Assembly (NCBI GenBank): GCA_026984795.1
Contig: JALSRK010000028.1
Coordinates: forward strand, 62,001-126,000
Source of the DNA: Solibacteraceae bacterium
GTDB lineage: Bacteria; Acidobacteriota; Terriglobia; Bryobacterales; Bryobacteraceae
DNA length: 64,000 bases
Reading direction: 5' to 3'
In this document: positions 39,150 to 52,202 of the stretch, piece after piece
Position numbering within the stretch: position 1 is the stretch's first letter
Layout of the letters: each line of letters starts with the position of its first letter
Program-made: the position numbers and the translations under genes
Notes under the pieces: generated by a model
The model's database searches: none
Told to the model about the DNA's origin: nothing
The model's input: only the letters and a program-made list of their open reading frames with translations

Positions 39150-40784
39150 TCAGCAGCCGCCGCAGGTGAACTTGCCGCAGCCGTTTCCGGCGGCCGGCAA
39201 CGGCGTGGAGAACTCCTTCTCGATCTTCTCGCGGAAGGTCGGCCCGCCGTTGTAGGCGCAGAAGGGATAGATGCGGCCGTTGGGGGCGGCGTAGTGGATC
39301 ACGCAGCGCTTCACCCGCTCGATGTCGTAGTTGTAGTGGTCCATGAAGTGCATTCCGGCCACCATGAGGGTCTTGAAGGTGAAGCCCTTCTTCTCGGCCT
39401 CGCCGCGCCCGTAACGCTTGTCCGTCAGGCCCTGCAGCGTCTGGAGGAACTTGGCGAAGGTGAGGCCCTCGGGGGCGCGGTCCTCGTGGAAGTGCCGCTT
39501 GAACTTCGACCAGAGGTTGATCTTGGTGAACAGCTTCACCCGGGCCTTGGAGGCCTTCCGAGACATCAGGTCCATGTCCTGCAGGAAGGCGCCGACGTCC
39601 ACGAACCGGGTGACCGGGGTGGCGCGCTTGTGCTGATCGACGAACAGATAGGTGCCCAGCGAGCAATGCGGGTGGGGCGTCAGGTGGGTGGTCATCTCGC
39701 CCCGGAGCGCGCTGACGAGTTTCGAGAAGGGCGCCACGCAAGCCAGCGGGAACCAATCTTCGTAGGGATCGCAAATGCCCGTCTGCCGGTGGACGTCGTG
39801 GGCGAAGTCCGACATCGTGTAGCGCTTCTGCTCCAGTTCGCGGCGGTTGATGCGCCCCGTGAAGGCGACCGGCTGGTAGCTGATGGCGCTAATGACATCG
39901 ATGTTGTCGATGGCGAACTTGAGGATGTCGCCCACCTCGTGGTCGTTGAAGCCCTTGACGATGGTGGGTACCAGGCAGATCTTCATCCCCGCCTTGCGGA
40001 TGTTCTCGATGGCCTTGAGCTTGGTTTCCATGAGCCGCTGGCCGCGGGTGCGGAGATAGATGTCGTCGGTGACGCCGTCGAACTGGAGGTAGATGGTGTG
40101 CAGCCCGGCCTCCTTGCTCTTCTCGGCGAACTCGAGGTCGGCGAACAGGATGCCGTTCGAGGCGCACTGGATGTGGGAGAAGCCCATCTCCTTGGCCATC
40201 CGCAGAGCGTCGAACCAGGTGGAGGCGATGGTCGGCTCGCCGCCGGAGAACTGCACGATACGGCCGGCCACCGGGCGCTCGTCGCGCAGCGCCTGGAGCA
40301 TTTTGCGGACGTGCTCCTTGTCCGGTTCGTAGAGATAGCCCTGGACGTTGGCGTTGGCGAAGCAGACCGGGCAGGTCAGGTTGCAGCGGTTCGTCAGATC
40401 GACGTTCGCCAGGCCGGTGTGGGAGGTGTGCATCGAGCAGAGGCCGCAGTCGGTGGGGCACTCGGTGGCGTCCGGCACCGCCGGGTTCTCGACGCCCCGG
40501 TTGTCGCCGAAGGTCCATTCCTCCATCTTCCGGTAGAGCTTGGCGTCCGAGTAGACGGTGTCCTTGAAGAAGCCGTGCTCGGGGCAGGTCTTCTCCATCA
40601 CCACCTTGCCGTCCTCTTCGCTGAGGACCGCTTCGATGATCTTCGAGCATTCCGGACACAGCGATTGGGTGATCTTCGGCAGCCCCTTGGGCACGGGCTT
40701 GATGGGGGCTCCGGTGTAGGTGGTCTCCGGCTGCAGGATGTGGAAACCTTCGGCCTTCTTCGGGGCGAATGCTTGGGTGCTCAT
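39150..40784 (-). CDS. Tes-like radical SAM enzyme (tetraether lipid synthase family)
   Basis: This 544-residue radical SAM protein resembles archaeal MJ0619/Tes, which joins lipid tails through C-C bonds to form membrane-spanning tetraethers. The N-terminal cysteines appear in SLCPECSKIIEAV, KTCPEHGFF and ECPTDCGLCSMHTSHTGLAN. The SAM-cluster motif is NRCNLTCPVCFANAN (Cys 134, 138 and 141), followed by FSGGEPT and YLQFDGVTDDIYL. More Cys occur in GICDPYEDWF, the C-terminal FCAYNGG and the final CGKFTCGGC. GGAGG precedes ATG 40784. The neighbours are unrelated, so lipid cross-linking is inferred from sequence alone; related enzymes are implicated in bacterial iso-diabolic acid formation. Confidence 0.8.
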   Translation of the reverse strand: MSTQAFAPKKAEGFHILQPETTYTGAPIKPVPKGLPKITQSLCPECSKIIEAVLSEEDGKVVMEKTCPEHGFFKDTVYSDAKLYRKMEEWTFGDNRGVENPAVPDATECPTDCGLCSMHTSHTGLANVDLTNRCNLTCPVCFANANVQGYLYEPDKEHVRKMLQALRDERPVAGRIVQFSGGEPTIASTWFDALRMAKEMGFSHIQCASNGILFADLEFAEKSKEAGLHTIYLQFDGVTDDIYLRTRGQRLMETKLKAIENIRKAGMKICLVPTIVKGFNDHEVGDILKFAIDNIDVISAISYQPVAFTGRINRRELEQKRYTMSDFAHDVHRQTGICDPYEDWFPLACVAPFSKLVSALRGEMTTHLTPHPHCSLGTYLFVDQHKRATPVTRFVDVGAFLQDMDLMSRKASKARVKLFTKINLWSKFKRHFHEDRAPEGLTFAKFLQTLQGLTDKRYGRGEAEKKGFTFKTLMVAGMHFMDHYNYDIERVKRCVIHYAAPNGRIYPFCAYNGGPTFREKIEKEFSTPLPAAGNGCGKFTCGGC

Positions 40785-41033
40785 GAGTCGAACCTCCGCT
40801 TGTCCAGGGTTGCTGATGCAGGTTTCTGATCGCTGGATGGCCGGAGCGCACGTGCGCCCCCTTGCCACCCGTTAAGTCTAATCGAGTAAACGCCTTAGGC
40901 CAAAGGATCCGCAGCCAGCGGCGGGATTCGCGAGGCGAATTGCGAGAATCAGGCCTGAATAGAGATTCTTTACCGGGGCGTACAGTTTTCCCCGGCTCCG
41001 GCGGCCGGCGCTGCACGGATCCCCGCGGTCCAA

Positions 41034-51464: not shown

Positions 51465-52202
51465 TCAGCCCGCAAAGTCTACGATCAGCGGCTCGTCCAC
51501 CTTGCGGTTCAGCAGGGCCAGGGCGGCGCGGATGATCCGCTTCTGCAGCTCGGGGTTGTGCGGCTCGCCCAGGGGATAGCCGAGGGGGTAGTCCACGAAG
51601 AGCACCCGCGGCGGCTTCACCTTCTGGGTCACCTCGCGAAGCACGGAGACCGAGACGGTGGGGATGCCGGCCTTCTCGATGACGCTCTGGATCAGTCCCA
51701 CGGACTGATGGCAGAGCGGTCAAACCGGCGTCAGCAGCACCGCGTCCACGCCGTCTTCCCGGAGCTTGGCGGCCACCTCGGGGGCGGTCTGCTTCACCAG
51801 CCGGCCGGGGGCGGGGATCGAGCCCTGGAAGCTGAAGTGGCGGCCGGCGACGCCGCCGATCTCGCCGTTGGCGGCCATCTCCCGCAGCCGGTCCACCGGC
51901 AGCGCCAGGTTGTAGTCGGCCTGGATGCCGTTGGGGTCGAAGGCTTCGCTGCGGTGAGAGATACCGAGCGTCTTCAGGTCGGCGGCGCTGGGGATCTCCC
52001 GGTAGGTGTAGTCGCCGCCTCGCAGTTTTTCGTCGAACGGCGGCTGGTGGGGCAGGGAGAAGGACGCCGTGGTCACGCAGGCGATCGTCGCCTCCCCCAG
52101 CGGCTTCGCCAGGACTGTCCCGGGGCGCCAATCGAAGCTGCGGTACATGTAAGCCCTCATGTAGAGCCGGTAGGAGAGCTTCAGGTCTGAGAGTGATGCC
52201 AT
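51465..52202 (-). CDS. Selenoprotein of the glycine/betaine/D-proline reductase B family (UGA read as Sec)
   Basis: Two apparent ORFs (51720-52202 and 51465-51701) are one gene of 245 residues joined through an in-frame TGA at 51720-51722. Upstream is VDAVLLTPV; after the TGA follows [20 protein letters not shown]. This gives LTPV-U-PLC-HQS, a UxxC redox motif with Sec at residue 161 and Cys at 164. The family (selenoprotein B of glycine/sarcosine/betaine reductases and PrdB relatives) normally has Sec or Cys here. A strong hairpin follows directly. The short length suggests an oxidoreductase related to, but not equal to, the clostridial enzymes. Sec machinery genes are not in this window. 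Confidence 0.82.
51683..51718 (-). promoter_or_regulatory. SECIS element directly after the UGA codon
   Basis: On the coding strand, CGCTCTG (51718-51712) pairs with CAGAGCG (51689-51683). After a 2/1-nt internal bulge, ATCAGTCC (51709-51702) pairs with GGACTGAT (51698-51691), leaving a GTG loop at 51701-51699. The loop starts 18 nt after the UGA with a G, which fits described bacterial SECIS rules as I recall them. A 15-bp near-perfect hairpin at exactly this place is hard to explain otherwise. Confidence 0.82.
51720..51722 (-). other. In-frame UGA, predicted selenocysteine codon
   Basis: TGA lies between two segments of the same reading frame and the same protein family, three codons before TGC (Cys 164). 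The SECIS hairpin begins 1 nt downstream. Confidence 0.82.

Follow-up and report, generated by a model that had tools for sequence, protein, structure and literature searches.

The window, that is, the whole 64-kb stretch of Solibacteraceae DNA analysed here, holds on its minus strand a frame that runs from an ATG through 160 codons to a TGA, and then through 84 further codons up to a stop (Table 1). Gene calling with translation table 11 divides this gene into two minus-strand ORFs (51720-52202, 160 aa; 51465-51701, 78 aa), as the initial annotation had expected of a standard gene caller. Both ORFs lie in one frame, joined by the TGA at codon 161 in the context LLTPV-U-PLCHQSV, and the earlier proposal of two apparent ORFs linked through a single TGA into one protein with the motif V-U-P-L-C was borne out. 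The neighbouring genes are one with an NYN domain and the divergent ccmE, ccmF and ccmH; no neighbourhood conserved across the selenocysteine (Sec) clade was seen.

Table 1. Coordinates of the probable selenoprotein gene and its features in the window
Feature	Position	Strand	Remarks
Probable selenoprotein gene	52202-51465	minus	ATG at 52202; 245 residues including Sec161; stop TGA 51467-51465
In-frame TGA, predicted selenocysteine 161 (V-U-P-L-C)	51722-51720	minus	Same codon TGA/Cys in homologues
Cys164 codon of the UxxC motif	51711..51713	minus	Column at least 90% conserved in the 61-row alignment A2
Predicted SECIS, apical hairpin of 8 bp (AUCAGUCC/GGACUGAU) with GUG loop	51691..51709	minus	Paired 93.1%; covaries
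Longer hairpin of the window genome, lower stem added	51680..51722	minus	Fold -24.1 kcal/mol

The genome from which the window comes (77 contigs totalling 5.23 Mb, completeness 96.8%) encodes the Sec machinery, the presence of which had been named as a check on the annotation. Specifically, selA (511.5 bits), selB (373 bits) and selD (372.2 bits) all scored over their cut-offs, as did a tRNA-Sec at 79.1 bits, confirmed by ARAGORN as tRNA-SeC(tca), and two more tRNA-Sec matches (49.2 and 47.4 bits) that pass the cut-off of 47. The selD gene (L012, G000:C52:108696-109616) is itself UGA-coded, with an in-frame TGA in AAG-U-ASKL. Across the phylum sample, selB was present in 52 of the 53 genomes with a TGA-containing match (any TGA inside the match, its position confirmed only in the fetched loci) versus 116 of the 215 without a homologue (Fisher p 2.4e-11, a value that ignores kinship). 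It was also present in 26 of the 29 genomes whose homologues all lack a TGA, and selB presence therefore does not single out the Sec forms. In these counts the two genome lists (53 with TGA, 29 without) were compiled by eye, the 116 is 194 - 52 - 26, and all 78 selB-positive genomes (52 + 26) were taken to be over the cut-off from E values of at most 1e-84. The one exception among the 53, G055, has a TGA homologue but selB not over the cut-off, owing either to a gap in the assembly or to decay of the system.

A homologue was present in 82 of the 297 genomes of the phylum sample and in 23 of the 200 genomes of the family sample, with the window's own genome in both. The fetched set comprised 64 loci, made up of 60 of the phylum-sample places listed (not all), the window's own locus and three loci of named records. 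Codon 161 was TGA in all 32 fetched phylum-wide homologues with more than 42.5% identity by tblastn (window included), two of which came from Methylomirabilota; more distant homologues had U, C, S, D or E at this position. The 16 intact orthologues from the same family (53-100% identity) had TGA in 14 cases, that of the window included, and TGC (Cys) in two, L145 (57% identity) and L146 (53% identity); the family sample also included one copy that is split (L147), one fragment (L148) and further homologues at greater distance. The alignment proposed in the initial annotation thus returned relatives with Sec or Cys at position 161. Alignment A2, which underlies the conservation of Cys164 in Table 1, has 61 of 77 compiled rows, with L147, L148, L118 (given as the window), L086 and L090 already left out.

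In a midpoint-rooted tree built without L147, L148, L086, L090 and L134, the two Cys forms are nested among Sec forms, with the Sec form L144 between them. Judged from this placement, the direction of exchange was likely from Sec to Cys, and since the L144-L146 fork had support of 100/45, one exchange and two both fit. The genome of L145 retains selB, and selB was not found at E 1e-40 in that of L146 (G455), nor in two other searched genomes of its genus. Further out, Ser stands at position 161 with the Cys kept in seven side-branch homologues, and Asp or Glu in three, so a chalcogen at this position appears dispensable in some branches of the superfamily.

Several other features were encountered among these relatives. 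The Ser branch (L094, L095, L097, L099, L100, L102 and L103) reads ASRLCHQ, or ASKLCHQ in L103, retaining the second Cys, and several of its loci have related ORFs upstream, of which that of L094 matches DUF4149. Six side-branch homologues (L107, L110, L111, L114, L115 and L116) are preceded, at a similar place, by a short ORF of some 105 codons, and the one at L107 matches AhpC/TSA, a hint at a peroxiredoxin-linked role in that side branch. One homologue, L090 (G219), has two in-frame TGAs and the motif U-P-I-U, making it a possible double selenoprotein, and another, L086 (G099), combines a PrdB-like Sec domain with an HlyD/CusB-type membrane-fusion domain in one frame, which may be a genuine fusion or sequences joined artificially during assembly.

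The 43 nt from the TGA fold with an energy that none of 200 shuffles equalled (z -5.2), an excess that falls as more flank is added (66 nt, z -2.3, 3 of 200 shuffles; 101 nt, z -1.7, 11 of 200). Within the window, however, folds as strong over 43 nt follow 4 of the 1439 TGA sites on both strands, and folds as strong from nt +12 to +33 follow 21 of them, the Sec TGA being counted in each. With other TGAs bearing equally strong folds, the hairpin taken alone is suggestive as SECIS evidence, and it is the comparison of relatives that decides. In alignment A1 (32 rows, 31 distinct, with homologues below 42.5% identity left out), the apical helix, which starts 13 nt beyond the T of the TGA and pairs 51709-51702 with 51698-51691, corresponds to columns 19-26 and 30-37, where 93.1% of cells were paired; slid partners paired in 18-47%. 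Its covariation score was 0.306 versus 0.137 in shuffles, and both-sided changes occurred in 24 cells versus 7.2, with 0 of 500 shuffles as high in either case. Two of the five covariation measures were not above shuffles, namely the number of pairs changed on both sides, where 224 of 500 shuffles attained the observed 3, and the number of further pair types, where 192 of 500 attained the observed 8. At pair 24-32, the combinations A-U, U-A and G-C connect the first base of a Thr, Ser or Ala codon to the wobble base of a Gly codon, a base match that, as read from the alignment, is beyond what coding demands. RNAalifold recovered seven of the apical pairs, and the G of the apical loop was invariant in A1; a conserved loop G is named for bacterial SECIS elements in the Fig. 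4 legend of PMC1794560.

The initial annotation had offered a near-perfect hairpin of 15 bp as the SECIS. A hairpin is indeed present and its apical 8 bp covary, but the 10 pairs of the lower stem are not conserved in the family (47.1% paired versus 47.8% in shuffles), which rules out the whole 15-bp stem; on the comparative evidence, the apical 8-bp hairpin is the predicted SECIS. Sec genes (n = 64) kept on average 6.5 of 7 pairs versus 4.1 of 7 in 15 non-Sec genes, with mean hairpin fold energies of -11.9 and -7.3 kcal/mol, respectively (L147 and L148 left out), a difference that is a trend and not a test because the two groups also differ in kinship. A few Sec genes, L132 and L144 among them, had a weak hairpin. 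No Rfam match at gathering score was found in the 64-kb window, and Rfam may lack a model for such a SECIS.

Two curated models placed the protein in the reductase B family over their cut-offs, in agreement with the earlier assignment. These were NCBIfam TIGR01918 (72.5 bits, cut-off 65.45), which covers residues 32-238 and spans the TGA, and the Pfam GRDB model PF07355 (44.1 bits, gathering 22), which covers residues 12-158 and ends before it. The PrdA model TIGR04480 was silent in the window's own genome, 96.8% complete, in a search in which no control matched either. Moreover, Gly_reductase PF09338, the scope of which we take to be GrdE and PrdA, was silent in 296 of the 297 phylum genomes, own included, and matched only in G132, the genome of the GrdB-like homologue L117. 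The initial annotation had pointed to missing partner proteins as something unusual. No PrdA/GrdE-type partner was found, yet a PF09338-type partner is likewise absent from 81 of the 82 phylum genomes with a homologue, which argues for a stand-alone relative rather than a degraded D-proline or glycine reductase.

The predicted structure of the whole read-through chain had a pLDDT of 96.8 and a pTM of 0.94. A single-protein sequence search returned no solved structures, and a profile search of solved structures returned five matches, the best being a 36-residue stretch of the designed homodimer 7rmy_A (E 3.4e-6) that we take as a chance match. Foldseek with the predicted model gave a best E of 0.02 and nothing at 0.001. 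VIA-align 2 gave a single chain at Z of at least 8, microcystinase C (Z 8.5, 160 residues, rmsd 4.2), and the remainder were mostly LacI-type and other alpha/beta folds at Z below 8, a range given by unrelated models. No solved structure stood out as a clear relative.

Sequence comparison shows the single frame, the Sec machinery, a conserved Sec position, covariation in the hairpin and an exchange of Sec for Cys in orthologues, and it detected no PrdA/GrdE-type partner. On this basis we consider it very probable that this is a working selenoprotein gene, encoding a stand-alone selenol/thiol reductase of the GrdB/PrdB superfamily with SECIS-driven UGA decoding. We infer read-through of the UGA in the organism, the redox chemistry and the role of Cys164. 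SelB and Sec-tRNA would decode the UGA owing to the small hairpin just 3′ of it, and the product would act as a stand-alone superfamily member without a PrdA-type partner. Its Sec161-Cys164 pair would form a selenol/thiol redox centre, in which the selenol of Sec161 would attack a small-molecule substrate and Cys164 would resolve the adduct or a selenenyl-sulfide, with cellular thiol systems re-reducing the centre.

A more tentative proposal is that the window clade (44 tree rows, all Sec but two) forms a selenoenzyme family of its own, independent of any pyruvoyl-type partner and acting on a novel metabolite substrate, which in some strains may come from a neighbouring pair of radical-SAM enzyme and methyltransferase. 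If this is true and environmental PrdB-type selenoproteins are alike, the 'proline reductase' label on them would be wrong. The pair was seen at few loci. In L144 (Sec), L145 and L146 (both Cys), three genes follow one another on a single strand: a radical-SAM gene, then a methyltransferase gene that runs up to the start of the PrdB-like gene, and the latter itself; L139 has the pair close by, on the opposite strand. A search of 40 same-family genomes with L146's radical-SAM protein gave matches of 70% identity or more in four, one being the source genome of the query, and each of these genes is no farther than about 5 kb from the PrdB-like gene. Additionally, in L137 a 26-residue stretch upstream of the gene is 92% identical to the radical-SAM protein and is perhaps its remnant.

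Such associations would fit a pathway in which the PrdB-like protein reduces or releases the product of a Tes/TrsS-like radical-SAM enzyme and a DVU_1556-like methyltransferase, an addition compatible with the stand-alone reductase set out above. We regard this pathway as unlikely, given that only 4 of the 18 homologue-bearing genomes in the same-family search have the radical-SAM gene and that the window's genome has no copy, its best match being the window Tes gene at 33% identity. Both neighbours also score below the cut-offs of the models named, with the methyltransferase of L146 at 132.9 of 155 bits for the DVU_1556 family, its best model, and the radical-SAM protein of L146 at 318.3 of 450 bits for Tes and 315 of 490 for TrsS. 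The window Tes gene (39150-40865, minus strand) scores 590.9 bits with NF045702 (cut-off 450), and Tes, tetraether lipid synthase, is an enzyme of membrane-spanning lipids. TrsS has one table row in the available part of PMC13188914, and no paper describing it was found in the open-licence PMC literature. Even so, these neighbouring genes, present in a few relatives, give an initial clue to the substrate, and the two natural Cys orthologues, one of them in a genome without a selB match, offer a direct comparison of selenium's contribution. The gene, split by standard calling, has relatives that are frequent in the phylum sample, and its nearest clade retains the Sec codon.

Far less probable is that the protein is the PrdB subunit of D-proline reductase, or protein B of glycine, betaine or sarcosine reductase, serving amino-acid reduction. 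The PrdB model TIGR04483 is its best model, and the window protein shares 62 identical residues, Sec161 (as C), Cys164 and His165 among these, with each of three operonic PrdBs encoded next to prdA (T. glycolicus, L. salivarius and E. gilvus). However, it reaches 141.9 bits with TIGR04483 against a cut-off of 300, and 64 of 602.2 bits with the GrdB model TIGR01917, of which only profile positions 209-426 of 431 were matched. The operonic PrdBs read UGTC where the window protein reads UPLC, and the window clade is set apart from them by a branch supported at 99/92 (midpoint root; the long-branch L117 falls on the PrdB side). Two alphaproteobacterial plasmid homologues have the Cys form. With the partner not found, the different motif and the separate branch, the window gene is, by sequence, PrdB-like and not PrdB proper, and a role as a D-proline or glycine reductase subunit was rejected.

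Least credible of all is that two separate genes or a pseudogene lie here, with the TGA a true stop or a sequencing error: table-11 calling does split the gene there, but the same TGA recurs in many separate assemblies, family models run through it, the genome has the Sec machinery and a covarying hairpin follows, and dN was below dS 3′ of the TGA in all 10 pairs compared (five with the window, five among relatives), for example 0.13 versus 1.16 between the window gene and L132. Together, the shared TGA and the purifying pattern downstream exclude the sequencing error that the initial annotation had raised, and rule out a pseudogene.

The stand-alone reductase can thus be set against what is known of its relatives. 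The statement in the initial annotation that selenoproteins of this kind are known mainly from amino-acid-fermenting anaerobes is less well supported than the rest of it. PrdB was the third most abundant known selenoprotein family in the Sargasso Sea set, with 42 genes, in the passages of PMC1088965 that treat it, and GOS samples had 235 Sec versus 110 Cys forms in the corresponding part of PMC2398784, so that marine metagenomes are rich in PrdB-type UxxC selenoproteins, and the window gene is a member of a kind reported since 2005. In PMC1794560, from 2006, 'proline reductase' is also entered for Anaeromyxobacter and for one Geobacter. On the other hand, a passage of a 2026 review (PMC13188914) states that aerobic bacteria rarely retain selenoproteins, which would support the surprise expressed earlier if the host were aerobic. 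A search of the open-licence PMC literature for stand-alone PrdB-like proteins led back to these marine papers and to one on C. difficile, no substrate is named for the stand-alone form in the texts consulted, and the available parts of PMC12013277 and PMC4807772 contain nothing on the PrdB-like family.

Of the characterised systems, the D-proline reductase PrdB of Bacillota (e.g., prdC/prdA/prdB on the Terrisporobacter glycolicus plasmid pTG1) has Sec-x-x-Cys at the same place and 34-38% identity to the window protein over 82-90% of the query. Unlike it, the window protein has UPLC for UGTC, belongs to a separate clade, scores less than half of the PrdB cut-off and comes from a genome in which PrdA was not found. 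Protein B of glycine reductase and its subfamily (PF07355, TIGR01918 and TIGR01917) match the window protein in their Sec-bearing C-terminal half, whereas the N-terminal half of the profiles is unmatched and the PF09338 partner was not found. The marine PrdB-type proteins, entered in the GOS table under pfam07355 with Sec and Cys forms, were named 'proline reductase' by homology; the passages on them are silent on PrdA, a word absent from PMC2398784 in the part available. Likened by their descriptions in those parts of PMC1088965 and PMC2398784, these marine selenoproteins share with the window protein both the Sec in a UxxC motif and the homology to PrdB.
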